From: Balneolaceae bacterium
GTDB lineage: Bacteria > Bacteroidota > Rhodothermia > Balneolales > Balneolaceae
DNA length: 64,000 nucleotides
Assembly: GCA_034521495.1 (NCBI GenBank)
Contig: JAXHMK010000014.1
Span: 62,001 to 126,000 of the forward strand
Reading direction: 5' to 3'
Below the pieces are notes generated by a model that saw only the letters and a program-made list of their open reading frames with translations, was not told the origin of the DNA and searched no databases. This document shows, piece after piece, positions 4,148 through 40,027 of this stretch. Positions within the stretch are counted from its first letter, which is position 1, and each line of letters begins with the position of its first letter. The position numbers and the translations under genes were made by a program.

Positions 4148-4510
4148 TTTGCTTCTTGATACGAATATCATCCTTTATTTTTAAATGGAGATGATACGAT
4201 TTTACCGCTTCTTGAAGAACGAAATCTGATTATATCTATAATTACAGAAATAGAATTGTTAGGATATGAAGGATTCAATAAAAGAGAGCTGTCTGTTACC
4301 AAAGATTTTCTTAAAAAATGTACAATTATCAATTTAAATACAGATATAAAGAATAAAGCAATTGCTATCAGAAGAAAATATAAGATGAAACTTCCGGATA
4401 CGGTGATTATGGCCACAGCCAAAAGTTTAGAAATCCCCTTGATAACAGCCGATCATGACTTCAAAAAAGTTAAATCTGCCACTATTATCTTCTATGACAG
4501 TACTTTATAG
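4134..4510 (+). pseudogene. PIN-domain toxin (VapC), frameshifted
   Basis: ATG at 4134 gives MSGSSLLLDTNIILYF and then hits TAA. Shifting by one base at the T-run near 4178 restores LNGDDTILPLLEERNLIISIITEIELLGYEGF, continuing to 4510. The PIN-domain acidic residues are visible in the combined frame: D in LLLDTN, E in ITEIELLG, and D in KLPDTVIMATA and ITADHDF. Adding a single T rebuilds a full ~125-residue VapC ribonuclease. The gene is therefore either recently inactivated or carries a homopolymer sequencing error. Without the shift the product is 16 residues long. Confidence 0.75.
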
Positions 4511-4878
4511 TTTGCTAATGATTCAGTTGACAATAAACAAGTAACAAATTGTCAATCCAGGGATTGACAGTATGAATGATTGCCCATGGGCAATCCAACC
4601 CCGAAGGGGTACAAAATCAATAGCCCATGGCAAAAAACACGAGCGTTGCGATGTGTTTGCAGCCGTGGGTTGAACAGTTCCCAAACCCAGATGCCCCGAG
4701 TCGATAGGCGCGAATTGGTAATGATGAATGGATTCGGGGGGCTTCGCATTGGTCAAAGTCTAATGTTTAATGTTCAAGGTTGAAATAGAACTTTAAACCG
4801 TAGACTTGAAACCTTAAACCCATAGAGGGGCTGCATTGATAGACGTTGACAGGGTTCTTCCCTGAATCGCGGAGATCC
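4511..4878. repeat. R1 unit plus heptad tract and IS110 target repeat
   Basis: An R1 unit occupies about 4573-4745: first hairpin tgccc/gggca, ccccgaagggg, and a long-range cccatggc...gccgtggg stem containing one G-U pair. A heptad-type tract follows (about 4755-4825). The segment ends in the repeat text 'cctgaatcgcggagatccct' (to 4880), whose continuation was displaced by the neighbouring IS110 element. No gene is seen. Confidence 0.7.
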
Positions 4879-4880
4879 CT

Positions 4881-5224
4881 GTTATGTTAAATCGCAAGTT
4901 TTTTACTAAAGCCTCCCTTTAAAGGACATACCTTATCTACCCAGGTTCTATTGGTTTTTACCTGTTCGGTCATGCCCGGTTTTTACATGGTTTTTGTTGT
5001 AGAGAATTACCTTTGTTTTTCGGTTCTTTTCTTTGCCATCTGACAATCTGTTATAAACAATCTTGCTGCCCCCTCATCGGGGTGGCCTTCAAGCTGCAAG
5101 GTTTCTTTCAGTTCAGGATAAAGTGGGGCGGACAGAACCTCCAGATAGCATGAACGGTACGGCCGAGGGCCGTCGCGCAGGGATCTCGAACTGCCGCCCC
5201 GAATTGAACGTTGCAGATGGGTAA
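4881..5224 (-). ncRNA. Candidate bridge RNA region of the IS110 element
   Basis: Known biology: IS110-family elements encode a bridge RNA in a long non-coding end; in IS1111-type members this lies 3' of the transposase, as here. Seen: a 7-bp stem ggggcgg/ccgcccc (5125-5131 with 5194-5200) encloses a 6-bp hairpin (5159-5173). The internal loop contains a 9-nt match (5179-5187) to the complement of the left target flank including the CT core (4872-4880). A second stretch, ctgttat at 5048, matches the element end at 4879-4885. The boundaries and the choice of strand for the RNA are inferred. Confidence 0.45.
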
Positions 5225-6361
5225 TCAAAGAACGTGATTATTGGTTTTGTGGAGTTGCTGCTGAGTGTTCGGCGGCAACGGATCCAACTCTATCCATACT
5301 TTTCGCATCCGCAAAGCCAGTTTTCGGGCAATGCGAATAATTGCTTTTTGTTTGGACATCCGGCGGATGTACCCTCGCCAACAGCTATGCAGCTCCTCAT
5401 CCTGGCGAGCCGCCACCCATGCCGCCTCAATCAGCAAGCGCCGCAGTCGCTGGTTGCATCGGCTGGTTACTCCTTTGTACTGCTCATAGTCCCCGCTGCC
5501 GTGCACATCCGGGACCAAGCCCAGATAACTGCTCAGCCGGTCGCCGTTGGCAAAACGATGAATGTCCATCAGTTCACAACAATAGCCAATCGCAGTGATC
5601 CATCCCACGCCCCGAAAGCGTGAACGCAACGCCTCAATCACTTCCCATATACCATGAGCCTTGCATTGCTCACGCAACAACCGGTTGACCTGCAACAGCT
5701 GCTGGCCGAGGGTGGCCAGTCGTTCCAGATGCTGATCCAGCACGAGCCGGGCTGCCGGTTGATCGAATTCCAGGGAGCGCAAATACTCCACAAACCGCCG
5801 CGACCAGCGGGGTAATTCATCAGCAGCAGGCACCGTCATTCCCCATTTGTCTAAAAAGGACCAGATGCGGTTTTTCATCCGGGTTTGCTCGTTTACCAGC
5901 TGATCGCGAAGCCGGAACACATCGCGTAACGCTTCTGCCCCGGCCGGAGGGACCCAGACCGGGGTAATCCGGCTTTCGGTATACGGGTCCGGATTGCGGC
6001 AATACTCCTCCAAAAACCGCGCCAGTTTGCGACAGTCCACCTTATCGGTCTTGCGGCGCTTTTCCTTGTCGGTCGTTGGCACATCAGCCGGATGGATCAC
6101 CAGATTTTCAAATCCCTGATCGGTCAGATCGCGATGGGTCGAAAAACCAGTAAATCCCGCCTCATATACCGTCACAAACCGCCCTTGCCCATAGTGTCTG
6201 TTGACAAAATGCCGCAACTGCTCAGCAGACGGATCCATGCTGAGCCTGCGTAATTCCTGTCCGTTAAACCGAATGGCCAGTTTCCAGGATGGCTTGTGCA
6301 CGTCGATACCTATACAATATGTATCGTAGATTTCGTAATTTGATGCTTGTATATTTTTCAT
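5225..6361 (-). CDS. IS110-family transposase (DEDD recombinase)
   Basis: The 378-residue protein has the N-terminal RuvC-like DEDD domain: GIDVHKPSWKLAI with the first Asp, VTVYEAGFTGF with Glu, and KTDKVDCRKLARFL with the later Asp residues. The C-terminal Transposase_20 domain contains FRGVGWITAIGYCCELMDIHRF, LSSYLGLVPDVHGSGDY and CNQRLRRLLIEAAWVA, with the serine typical of the catalytic region. The length matches the family. It would cut and rejoin DNA guided by a bridge RNA. The frame is uninterrupted, so the element may be active. The start at 6361 follows a short leader. Confidence 0.92.
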   Translation of the reverse strand: MKNIQASNYEIYDTYCIGIDVHKPSWKLAIRFNGQELRRLSMDPSAEQLRHFVNRHYGQGRFVTVYEAGFTGFSTHRDLTDQGFENLVIHPADVPTTDKEKRRKTDKVDCRKLARFLEEYCRNPDPYTESRITPVWVPPAGAEALRDVFRLRDQLVNEQTRMKNRIWSFLDKWGMTVPAADELPRWSRRFVEYLRSLEFDQPAARLVLDQHLERLATLGQQLLQVNRLLREQCKAHGIWEVIEALRSRFRGVGWITAIGYCCELMDIHRFANGDRLSSYLGLVPDVHGSGDYEQYKGVTSRCNQRLRRLLIEAAWVAARQDEELHSCWRGYIRRMSKQKAIIRIARKLALRMRKVWIELDPLPPNTQQQLHKTNNHVL

Positions 6362-6488
6362 AAGGGCTCCTTAAGTTTGGTTTTAGGGTACTTGGGGAGC
6401 CTTTAGTTTAGCCAAAGGCAACAATGATTTAAACATAATACCTCGGTTCCGCCTCGAAAAACACTCAGCTTCACTACCGGTGACAGTT

Positions 6489-8299
6489 TCATTCATTGAG
6501 TTCGACTAAGCCATATCCAAGCTGTGACGCATGTTTGTGCAGCATATGCAATCGCCGCTCCTGGTACTGTTTTTCATAGGCCTCGATACCTTGTTCCACG
6601 TAATCCATTCCCTGGGTCATCGCCCGGTAATAGAGAATAGCCAGTTTGCGGGCAACCGCTTTGACTGCAACGCCAGGGCCTCGCCGTGCGCGTATCCGGC
6701 GGCCAAAGGCGCCAAGGGCGTGGTTTTTACTTTCCAGCAGGCTTTGCGCGGCTTGTTTAAAAATCTCAGCAGCCCGCGGAGCAGATTTGTATTTATGTTT
6801 CCGGATATGTTTGTCGGATTGTTTCTTGCCGGGAGCCAGTTTCAGCCAGCTGGATGCTGGCAGCTATTGCGCACCCCCGTTTCATCGGCCCAGTGGATCT
6901 CGGCATCCTCCCGCTGAGCTTGCTTTCTGATGGCCGGGTAGGTGTTGTCCAACCACTGTTTGACTTCGGCCGGGCGTTGCTCATAGGCTCGTTTGGCCGG
7001 CTTTTGGGGAGTAAATCCCCATTTTCTCAAATAATCGCCCATCGTGTTAATCGCCAGCGAAACATCAAATTCACGCTTTACCAGCTCCTGAACGGCTTTA
7101 CGAGTCCATAAAGCGTAGTCCAGCTTAAGCTGATCGGGCATCGTATCGATCAGCATCTTCTGAATAGCTTTTTCCTGAGAAGCACTTAGTAGTTTTTCGC
7201 TTCAGAGGGGGCGCCTCGCTTTTTTTCGGTCAACCCGGCGGTTCCCCGGGCAGTGTAACTTTTCCACCAGTTGCTGACCGTATTCTTGTTGACACCAAGC
7301 AGTTGGGCTACGTCGCCTTTTTTGATCCCCTGTTTAATCATGCGGATCCCGCGCTTGCGCAAAACCGGTGCGCTCGGCTTTGGTTAAGGTTCTTAAATCT
7401 TGGTTTTCCATACCCAAAATATACCACTTTTTCCCATCATAATTATGAATATTTTATCGCCGGGTTAATAAAATGACCTTCCTTTGGGAATGGGGACAAA
7501 TCCACTCCGATTTCACCCATCAGGCGAAGCGCTGAATAATCGGTAATCCCCGGCAATTCGTTCACATTGATTCCGCGGCCGCCTCGAACCATTTTCTGGT
7601 GAAGCTGGTTGATAGCGGGTTTATGGTGGCGAATCGGTTTGGCTTTTCCGTACTCGTTCGGAATGGGTTGTCGGTCGGCCAACTGGGTTAACTCCCCGTC
7701 GATCTGCTGGTCACACTCGTATAATTTGCCCTGGTAGAACTCATAGCAATCGATCGCATCGGCCAGCTCATACAGATACTCCGGGCGGTAGTGTCCCTCC
7801 AGGGAGGCAACCACCTGATCGTGTTTGTTAGTCTGAATTCGTTTATCACAAAGAGCAACCAGTGCTTCAGGATCCCGCTCCCCATCCAGAATCGCCCGTA
7901 GCACTCGCATGCCGCTGGCTCCATGGACCTGGGAAATCACCTGGTGAAGGCGGATATTCATCAGCGTCAGGTTTTTTGCATGTGCAGAACGGCTTTGGCC
8001 GATTCACTGATGTAACGTTCGCGCAGCCGCAGGTACGCCCTCAAGGCTTTAATGGCCGGATCGGGAAGGAAACTATTAGCCAGCAGCCCGTAGCTGTGAA
8101 GCTGCTGAAGCCACTGGCAATCCGCTACATCACTCTTGCGGCCGGGCACATAGCGAAGGTGAGCAGCTCGATGGCGACACGAAATTCACAGGTAAATGTG
8201 CCAAATTGATGGACCGAATCATCCTCAAGGCCAATAAATATATGTTCACTGCCGATATCGATACCAGCGGTATGGTTCCGGATTTTTGTTATTTTCATG
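6489..8299 (-). pseudogene. Second IS110-family transposase, broken and interrupted by IS630 remnant
   Basis: Reading leftward from ATG near 8299, MKNPMKITKIRNHTAGIDIGSEHIFIGL starts an IS110 transposase. It breaks near 8150, where codons between the N-terminal strand region and PGRKSDVADCQWLQQL appear to be missing, and shifts frame again near 7964. It then runs to FPKEGHF at about 7480. After an IS630-type insertion it resumes at 6855 with SSWLKLAPGKKQSD and ends VELNE-stop at 6489. The two halves join without obvious loss if the insertion is removed. The ~210 bp 5' of the gene (8300-8512) is where IS110-group elements carry their bridge RNA. The gene is dead. Confidence 0.8.
6856..7445 (-). 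pseudogene. IS630-family element remnant inside the IS110 gene
   Basis: The segment is nearly identical to the 5' part of the IS630 element at 10520-11646. It keeps the right terminal inverted repeat (gaatattttatcgccgggttaa) and the start of the transposase (MENQDLRTLT...). A frame break follows near 7200 and 7370, then MLIDTMPDQLKLDYALWTRKAVQ through DAEIHWADETGVRNSCQH. After NSCQH it stops abruptly and is replaced by the IS110 gene. The left terminal repeat and the last two catalytic residues are gone. It entered at a TA dinucleotide and later suffered a deletion. Confidence 0.75.
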
Positions 8300-31444: not shown

Positions 31445-32005
31445 CCCTTGGTCCCCTTCCGTCAGTGGACGGATAAAATGAATGTAGACAGAGCTGTTCC
31501 CTGAATCGACGAGATCCCTCGGTTCCGCCTCGAAAAACACTCGGCTTCACTCCCCGATAAAAAACATCGGGGCAGGCGGGATGACAGGGCGGGGGTTGGA
31601 TTCGGCGGGCACAACGTACTGATGTTGAGCATTGTTTTGTCTTGCCCGCCGTGATACGTTTTTTGATTGATTCATACCAAATAAGAAGCTGAGCTTCAGG
31701 CTACCGTTTCGAAGGAAGATCTTCGGAACGAGTAACGAGTAAGTCAAGGATGTCACTTGTGCCCACGTAAAGGGGCACAAGTGACGCTTCGCTCAACACT
31801 TGCGCCAGTAGGGGGTTATACTGTGGTTAGGATTCACAACAATAATACCCCCAAAAACTGGCACAAGTGACGCTTTGCTATCGGTTACCTCTCCCCGAGG
31901 TGTCGGTGTCGGGACACGCGAGAGGGGAGGTAATCAACTCACATTTTCGATAAAAATTCATTATTCTATTCGGGGAGACGGCTTTTTAAGAGACGAAATG
32001 TAAAT
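31445..32005. repeat. R2 repeat and REP-like double hairpin upstream of the Argonaute operon
   Basis: After an R2 unit (31603-31651) come two hairpins. The first has a perfect 12-bp stem, tcacttgtgccc/gggcacaagtga (31753-31764 with 31773-31784). The second has a 13-bp stem with one mismatch (31797-31809 with 31857-31869) that encloses ggggg/ccccc. Each is followed by nearly the same text, gtgacgcttcgct (31781) and gtgacgctttgct (31867). This resembles REP/BIME doublets. The operon promoter should lie in 31900-32000; no clear boxes were found. Confidence 0.7.
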
Positions 32006-35965: not shown

Positions 35966-36869
35966 CCTTGGTCCCCTCCCTATTCCCGACACAAAATACG
36001 TGTCGTGAACAAGGAGGGGAGATGTGTTGAAAGTTTACCCGTCTGACCGCTTAGAGCGTTCTGACGGGTATCCGTGGCAATTTCCCAAAGATTGCCCCGG
36101 CAATCCAACCCCGAAGGGGTGGTCAGACAGTAGCCCGCGGCAAAAACACGAGCGTTGCGATGTGAGCGGTTCAATGTTTAAGGTTTAATGTTCAAGGTTG
36201 ACAACAACAGTATACAGTTGACAATAAACAGTTGACAAAAAACAGTTGACAAAATATGATTTATCAGCAATCAGCAATCAGCAATCAGCAATCAGCAATC
36301 AGCAATCAGCAATCAGCAAACAGTTGACAGTAGGCAAAAAGCAGTTGACAAACGGTTAACAGTATGCAATTGACAATAAGCAAGTAACTAAATAATGTTT
36401 ATCCACAATCCACAATTCACAAACCCCAAACTTTAAACTTTAGACTTGAAACCTTAAACCCACTGCGAGGGGCTGCGGTGATGAACGTTGTCAAGGATTC
36501 TGCCCATATTGATGAGATCCCTCGGTTCCGCCTCGAAAAAACACTCGGCTTCACTCGGGATGACAGGGACGGGGGTTGGATTCGGCGGGCACAACGTTTT
36601 GATATTGAACCCGGTTTTGTCTTGCCCGCCGGGAACATGTTTAAGGTCTAAAGTTCAAGGTTTAAGGTTTGAAACATTAAACCTTGAACCTTAGACGCAG
36701 TTGAGATCTCCACACATTGTTCAGGAGTGGTCGGTATCAATGGCACGGATCCCTGGTTCAAGCCTGCCCCGGGAATGCGGGGTCCGGAAGAACGGTAATG
36801 ATGTTTTGTGCAATACATATTGAAATAGTACATTATAAAAGTGTTGATAATTACAGTTAATACTCCTCT
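35966..36869. repeat. Composite repeat block with heptamer array
   Basis: The stretch contains the right half of R4, a truncated R1 unit (36089-36165), and a heptad tract built on cagttga (36200-36260). Eight copies of tcagcaa follow (36263-36319). Further heptads come next, then the intact IS110 target text gagatccctcggttcc (36514-36529) and an R2 repeat (36582-36632). No gene is seen before 36870. Confidence 0.8.
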
Positions 36870-39118: not shown

Positions 39119-40027
39119 TCGTCAGGTTCAGAGTCTAAGGGTTGACAATCCTTAAACGGCGAAGCTCAGCAATGGGACTGAGGGAAGCGAAGCTGTACGA
39201 GGTTCAGAGTACAGGATGCAGGATATAGGATACAGGATGCAGGGAATGTCCTGAGGTGGGCATCACATACTCATATTGAACATTTTTTGTCCCGTACGGC
39301 GGTTTGGAGGACCCACCCCTTGGTCCCCTCCCTATCCCCGACACAAAAACACGTGTCGGGGACAAGGAGGGGAGATCTATTGATTGCCCTCGGGCAATCT
39401 TACCCCGAAGGGGTACAAAATCAATAGCCCACGGCAAAAACAGGAACGAAGTAAACTGTTTGCAGCCGTGGGAATGGGTAACACCACACACCGAATGCCC
39501 CGAGGCGGTGGGCGTGAATTGATAATGATAAATGACTTCGAGGGGCTGCGCGCGGTTCAATGTTTAAGGTTTAATGTTCAAGGTTGACAAACACAGAAAC
39601 TTTAAACCTTAGACTTGAAACCTTAAACCCACTGCGAGGGGTTACATTGATGAACGTTGACAGGGCTACTGCCGGAATCACGGAGATCCCTCGATTCCGC
39701 CTCGAAAAAACACTCGGCTTCACTCGGGATGACAGGGTGGGGGTTGGAATCGGCGGGCACAACGTTCTGGTGTTGAACACGGTTTCGTCCCGCCCGCCGG
39801 GAAAAGGTTCAAGGTCTAAAGTTTAAGGTTTTAGGTTTGACTTTAAACCTTGGATCATGAACCTTATGAACCTGAACCCTGAAACCTATTATTCTTCCAT
39901 ATTTGCAGACAGGTTGGACAATCGTATTGAATATGATTAAAATACATTCGAAATTGAATCAATTTAAAGGTTATCAATAGAGTAGAGTACGGTTTAAATG
40001 ATAACATTCAGAATGTATAGGTGATTT
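39119..40027. repeat. Composite repeat block (R4, R1, heptads, R2)
   Basis: This is the best-preserved composite unit. An intact R4 hairpin (39307-39374; ccccgacac pairing with gtgtcgggg) is followed by an R1 unit (39381-39548; cccacggc/gccgtggg perfect). A heptad tract (39555-39635), the 'gagatccctcgattccgcc' linker, R2 (39751-39800) and a second heptad tract come after. No gene is seen. Confidence 0.8.

Follow-up and report, generated by a model that had tools for sequence, protein, structure and literature searches.

Two layouts described for the IS110 superfamily bear on the locus studied here. For the IS1111 family, Siddiquee et al. (PMC11187229) reported a seekRNA located 3′ of the transposase gene (tnp), sub-terminal inverted repeats, and a top-strand target match that comes first. 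The same paper reports a promoter at the junction of the ISEc21 circle, the location of ISPa11 at a REP sequence of P. aeruginosa, and exceptions within the IS110 group in which the non-coding region (NCR) is located downstream. The layout and the loops of the IS621-type elements were described by Durrant et al. (PMC11208160).

The window (the whole stretch of DNA that was analysed, 64 kb) contains an element which, judging by its sequence, is a new example of these recently discovered RNA-guided mobile elements, with dozens of relatives showing the same guide–target pairing. Very probably, it is an RNA-guided member of the IS110 superfamily with a bridge/seekRNA-type RNA, and the copy sits at a half-matched site. 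It agrees with the IS1111 family (IS4321, ISEc11, ISKpn4, and ISPa11) in that the predicted RNA follows tnp on its 3′ side, the inverted repeats are sub-terminal and about 11 bp long, and the top-strand match is located 5′ of the bottom-strand one; however, its transposase has 378 aa vs. 330–350 aa in that family. With IS621/ISCro4 (IS110 group) it shares the recombinase of the superfamily, the CT core, and separate target and donor loops, whereas the RNA of IS621-type elements lies 5′ of tnp and carries the bottom-strand guide first. The window element lacks this combination of a long upstream NCR and a leading bottom-strand guide that marks the IS110 group (IS621, ISEc21 type). Its layout does not contradict Siddiquee et al., because exceptions in the IS110 group are noted there.

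In an unrooted tree of 33 transposases (22 rows in the window clade), which has long branches and few references, the window clade groups with ISEc45 and ISSso6, and a split with support of 99/97 separates this group from IS621/ISCro4 and the IS4321 type. The window clade is placed outside the IS4321/IS5708/ISShdy1 clade, i.e., the transposase does not cluster with IS1111. Because the tree places the clade apart, we file the element as an IS110-superfamily member with an IS1111-like layout, not as IS1111. The presence of this layout outside the IS4321-type branch of the tree means that the rule assigning it to the IS1111 family needs checking.

ISEc45 (L198), on the sister branch with ISSso6, was delimited by an empty-site comparison as an IS of 1446 bp with a left NCR of 60 nt and a 3′ NCR of 253 nt. 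Its 9-bp sub-terminal repeats (TATGACCTT/AAGGTCATA) resemble those of the window clade in kind, and candidate guides appear in the same order as in the window: the T-type at NCR offset 38 (7.5 of 9) and the B-type at offset 75 (8 of 8, two bases inside the IS end). These guides rest on one insertion, and the T-type match is weak, not surpassing another one in the same NCR. Unlike the window element, ISEc45 has a remote transposase, and the RNA model described below gives no match in its locus.

Insertion, transposase, and relatives

The insertion and the sites related to it are located as follows.

4881-6443, minus strand: IS110-superfamily insertion, delimited by comparison of the flanks with empty sites; the interval includes the 2-bp core once (6442-6443)
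5225-6361, minus strand: transposase of 378 aa, DEDD_Tnp_IS110 + Transposase_20 (Pfam, NCBIfam, alignment of relatives)
4872-4880, minus strand: right target half and core, AGGGATCTC (sequence read)
6442-6450, minus strand: left target half and core, GGAACCG-AG (sequence read)
31511-31526, plus strand: uninterrupted target (sequence read)
36514-36529, plus strand: uninterrupted target (sequence read)

A previous sequence-only reading had proposed that the flanks rebuild an uninterrupted repeat, and this is borne out: they read gagatccct (4872-4880) and cctcggttcc (6441-6450), and gagatccctcggttcc is found uninterrupted at 31511 and at 36514; a further copy, at 39683, carries one mismatch. On the minus strand, GGAACCG-AG is followed by GTAT-TATGTTTAAATC and tnp at the left end; the right end consists of the 3′ NCR and GATTTAACATA-AC, followed by AG-GGATCTC. 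Taking the insert out restores GGAACCGAGGGATCTC. The host sequence of the insertion is a dispersed repeat of about 140 bp: with the insert omitted, the joined flanks can be aligned with 39598-39735 (84% identity) and 36429-36566 (81%), in both cases over about 140 bp, and with 31484-31554 (89%) over 71 bp, all in the window. The genome search revealed one copy of the element in the host, which is apparently intact and single-copy.

The 378-aa product scores above the cut-off in Pfam (DEDD_Tnp_IS110 and Transposase_20) and with the NCBIfam model of the IS110 RNA-guided transposase. Residues D20, E67, D106, and D109 are invariant among 12 aligned relatives and are taken for the catalytic DEDD residues, while GLVPDVHGSG represents the expected G--P----SG motif. 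The DEDD RuvC domain and Transposase_20 with its motif, which define the IS110/IS1111 superfamily, are both present, and the profile built from the relatives matches the IS621 and ISCro4 chains in PDB.

Other transposase pieces adjoin the insertion at 6842-7156 and 7443-8149 (both on the minus strand), an HTH_33 winged-helix piece (E 1.7e-21) being one of them. The piece 7967-8149 (minus strand) gives a sub-threshold match to DEDD_Tnp_IS110 (E 0.0018), and 7443-7961 (minus strand) gave no match in the Pfam search.

The window protein alone as a query found no relatives in the scans of genome contigs and viral contigs. Among the 58 nearest genomes, one relative with 41% identity was detected, the other matches being remote. 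Three of the matches (L021, L022, and L024), all in one genome and equal in score, are to a different, distant transposase of the IS110 type (20% identity) and may represent several insertion sites of a single element. In the search of 395 genomes of the phylum, proteins with 30–41% identity at E<=1e-30 were revealed in 17 genomes in addition to that of the window. An alignment of 12 sequences used as a query provided the best 80 of 328 loci in genome contigs and 3 in viral contigs. Tblastn against plasmids matched 3194 records, with up to ~31% identity among the matches listed, which were the source of the reference names; phages gave 4 records with up to ~27% identity. Record titles place the resulting clade of DEDD elements with a compact, putative 3′ bridge-type RNA largely in Bacteroidota, Ignavibacteria, and their neighbours. 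No paper on this clade was recognised in the literature consulted, which consisted mostly of titles and the beginnings of abstracts with few subscription journals.

Ends were sought in 84 loci, i.e., 82 of the 83 scan loci, the window, and L030. A script set both ends in 41 of them; of the 43 loci that failed, several leave the contig or have a differing end. Ends of L031, L038, and L040 were added by hand, giving 44 elements, and removal of the near-duplicates L083, L053, L119, and L104 left 40, the window included. Rows with a cut flank drop from single tests, which gives n=38.

Element ends and the predicted circle junction

Both ends of the window element carry sub-terminal inverted repeats, as is typical of the IS1111 family, and each end has a promoter-like box.

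6426-6437, minus strand: TATGTTTAAATC, sub-terminal inverted repeat of the left end, separated from the core by 4 nt
4883-4893, minus strand: GATTTAACATA, sub-terminal inverted repeat of the right end, separated from the core by 2 nt
4892-4897, minus strand: TTGCGA, -35-like box, 17 nt before the -10-like box in the predicted circle
6432-6437, minus strand: TATGTT, -10-like box of the predicted circle junction

The repeats share TATGTT(T)AAATC with one single-base offset, in keeping with the near-perfect repeats, mostly 11–13 bp long, of the IS1111 family. In the clade, the left end usually has an AG core, 4 nt, and then TATGTT(T)AAA or TATGTTTGTAA, and the right end has the complement of the left repeat, 2 nt, and the core. 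The CT core proposed earlier (AG on the transposase strand) is supported: bases at the core position of the two sides in 41 elements are AG/AG in 32, AG/AA in 5, GG/GG in 2, and AG/GG in 1, with 1 cut by the contig end. The window element has terminal extensions of 6/2 or 4/4 nt, according to how the core is assigned, and the published values for IS1111 are 7/3 or 6/3. From the stop codon to the end of the right repeat there are 342 nt and from the left repeat to the start codon 77 nt, so that the long NCR lies downstream of tnp, as in the IS1111 family.

In the predicted circle junction, TTG precedes TATGTT by exactly 17 nt in 39 of the 41 elements, while each alternative spacing from 13 to 21 occurs in two elements at most. 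A promoter formed at the junction would require such a spacing of 17 nt.

Predicted RNA and its guides

The 3′ regions of 44 elements could be aligned and revealed a common pattern, from which the following features of the window were derived.

5022-5219, minus strand: predicted RNA of the bridge/seekRNA type, comprising a target-binding and a donor-binding loop (alignment, consensus structure, model without the window)
5194-5200, minus strand: outer stem closing the target loop, 5′ arm GGGGCGG (fold, consensus structure)
5125-5131, minus strand: 3′ arm CCGCCCC of the same stem (fold, consensus structure)
5179-5187, minus strand: GAGAUCCCU, the top-strand target guide, a perfect match to 7 nt of the right target and the core
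5139-5145, minus strand: slot of the bottom-strand target guide, UCUGG-AG (alignment; also placed by the model without the window)
5048-5054, minus strand: AUAACAG, bottom-strand donor guide with the same sequence as the right end, ATAAC-AG
5099-5104, minus strand: possible top-strand donor guide AAACCU, found by eye; the left end predicts ATACCT and the match is weak

The first half of the pattern comprises a stem, GACYGUU, a variable stretch ending in CU, UGCRGC, and a hairpin of variable length; the second half comprises CYGYUU, a variable stretch ending in AG, and the closing stem. A second similar loop follows, mostly ending in AUAACAG or AUAGAAG. RNAalifold applied to 28 sequences gave 16 consensus pairs, 13 of them with compensatory changes; both loops are closed, and the variable stretches are left unpaired between two helices. 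The statement of the sequence-only reading that agggatctc (5179-5187) lies in an internal loop is correct, the loop being closed by the 7-bp stem 5125-5131/5194-5200.

Of 48 loci outside its training, a model of this RNA (R1) recognised 42 at E<=0.01, missing L035, L046, L099, L109, L114, and L124. In the second batch it recovered 12 of 15 and missed L032, L037, and L041; L035 belongs to both batches and passes in the second at 0.007, L003 and L064 are the same in sequence, and L029 and L071 have identical scores and probably the same sequence. The RNA match starts between -6 and 56 nt from the first in-frame stop codon of the transposase in 39 of the 44 loci measured, and three of the five farther starts occur in loci with a shortened transposase frame. 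With a model from which the window was left out (R2), the window RNA ranks first in 64 kb (5023-5220, 24.1 bits, E 0.0019; next match 1.1), a modest score for the window RNA once the window is left out, and GAGAUCCCU and UCUGGAG fall into the two guide slots. The fold of the window RNA alone has ordinary stability (z -0.83 and -1.32). The RNA model gave no match at E<=10 in nine reference stretches with other IS110-type transposases, and the Rfam search of 4500-6900 gave no family at E<=1. A 73-aa open frame (5007-5228, minus strand) covers the whole predicted RNA; it has no Pfam match and is taken as chance.

The guide slots were taken from an NCR alignment built without target data for 40 elements, and offsets of 0–2 were allowed for every element and every shuffle. 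The top-strand target guide fits its own target at 5.70 of 7 positions vs. 3.06 for other targets (n=38), the bottom-strand target guide at 4.12 of 5 vs. 1.60 (n=38), and the bottom-strand donor guide fits its own end at 4.85 of 5 vs. 3.83 (n=40). For each of the three guides, 0 of 5000 shuffles reached the observed fit, a count which is not a strict probability because related elements are not independent. Outward from the core, the first, second, and third bases of the bottom-strand guide are identical to the target in 38/40, 37/40, and 34/40 elements, respectively. A free scan of the whole NCR separated own from other targets for the top-strand guide with a Fisher p of 1.2e-16 (n=39); for a 9-nt bottom-strand guide it was weak (p 0.0008, n=39), whereas the fixed 5-nt slot gave a clear result. 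In five of 38 elements (L090, L098, L115, L084, and L116) the fixed top-guide slot scored below 4 of 7. The slot is probably misplaced in L090, L098, and L115, because a guide match of 9.5–10/10 is found elsewhere in their NCR; the low scores of L084 and L116 are without explanation.

In the clade, the top-strand guide is thus located 5′ of the bottom-strand guide, as in the IS1111 family, and the donor loop is recognisable by the covariation of its bottom-strand guide with the element ends. The proposal of a bridge-RNA target loop is supported by the homologous slot in relatives, the guide–target covariation, the covarying helices, and the second loop matching the element end. Since the guide positions are directly readable, targets of these elements should be predictable, and the enzymes may be tried as programmable recombinases.

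In the window copy, the top-strand guide matches 7/7 and the core, and none of the 37 other targets is fitted as well. This match had been assigned to the left target; the match itself stands, but in the transposase orientation it belongs to the right target (top strand). The donor guide matches 5/5, although matches of this kind are common: the guide fits 14 of 39 other ends equally. The bottom-strand target guide is different: UCUGG vs. the left target AACCG gives one identity and one wobble in five positions, and this score of 1.5 is the worst of 38, with 25 of 37 other targets scoring equally or higher. A second guide, for what was then called the right target, had not been found in the sequence-only reading. 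Its slot does exist (5139-5145, minus strand) and its mismatch to the target is confirmed; it was missed because its sequence mismatches the insertion site, which is a real property of this copy. Placing the left guide on the site with a shift was rejected, as by eye no register keeps the core.

Half-matched site and possible mechanism

By analogy with the published mechanism of IS621, ISEc11, and their relatives, the circle, its transcription, RNA binding, and recombination may be outlined as follows. The ends would join in a circle, forming a promoter with the -35 box from the right end and the -10 box from the left end, which would drive the transposase and the structured RNA downstream of it. 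The second loop would pair with the joined ends, and the recombinase would swap strands at the core. The right target half would be read perfectly and the left half not, placing the copy at a secondary site akin to the TGG-AG-GGATCTC repeats, which the loop fits better; alternatively, the left guide may have changed after insertion.

The host genome contains AGGGATCTC 51 times (0 for the reversed control), one occurrence being the guide itself. Among the 50 other sites, the commonest triplet before the core is TGG (11/50), and seven of the 11 TGG sites end the repeat GTCATCCCGAC...GAACGC. The inner UGG of the guide corresponds to the TGG of the TGG-AG-GGATCTC class; in this post hoc test, 1.6% of random guides match equally. 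The site GCTGG-AG-GGATCTC fits the left guide 4 of 5, a fit that 40% of random 5-mers also achieve. The loop may therefore be adapted to the TGG class, whereas the copy itself occupies the CCG class.

We give an even chance to the reading in which the perfect right half mainly guided the insertion and the left mismatch was tolerated, as at a secondary or off-target site. The contrast of 7/7 plus the core on the right with 1.5/5 on the left speaks for it, while IS621 reportedly tolerates mismatches poorly, and the three core-adjacent left bases are each matched in 34 to 38 of 40 elements of the clade. An extension of this reading, namely that in this lineage a perfect right-half guide and the core can suffice, so that a TGG-tuned element spills into sibling repeats sharing the right half, seems to us rather unlikely. 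If true, sufficiency of the right half would represent a natural retargeting route, seen here in one copy. How much of the guide is required can be tested directly at the half-matched site.

It is also quite conceivable, though we lean slightly against it, that both guides matched at an earlier move and that the left guide has since drifted or been exchanged, i.e., underwent decay or natural reprogramming. Natural redirection of guides is published for ISXne4 vs. ISEc11 and for ISMch6 (PMC11187229), and the inner UGG repeats the commonest context of AGGGATCTC. However, the order of events is unreadable in a single copy, and no single site fits significantly, the best reaching 4 of 5. The empty sites share the left half of the occupied site, so the site at least is unchanged; for the same reason, mutation of the site after insertion was rejected.

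It is scarcely credible that the 9-mer is a chance match, the target being picked by the protein or by repeat homology and the NCR being merely a hairpin: the previously estimated frequency of ~0.3% for the 9-mer alone proved accurate (0.26% for any 9-mer in 344 nt, both strands), and the mismatch of the other guide and the ordinary fold z-scores would suit this explanation, but the match occupies the homologous guide slot, where its chance on one strand is ~1e-5 (3 offsets / 4^9), the guides of the clade follow their targets beyond all shuffles, and most consensus pairs show compensatory changes.

The AGGGATCTC sites of the host genome form four inverted pairs (L126/L127, L139/L140, L187, and L189) with members 185–206 bp apart and GTCATCCCGAC...GAACGCATGGAGGGATCTC on one side, a REP/BIME-like family. 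Some relatives, such as L030 and L096, are also located in apparent dispersed intergenic repeats (...GTCCGG|GGATGACA... and ...GTTTATAGTT..., respectively), and their flanks suggest that the clade prefers repeats as sites.
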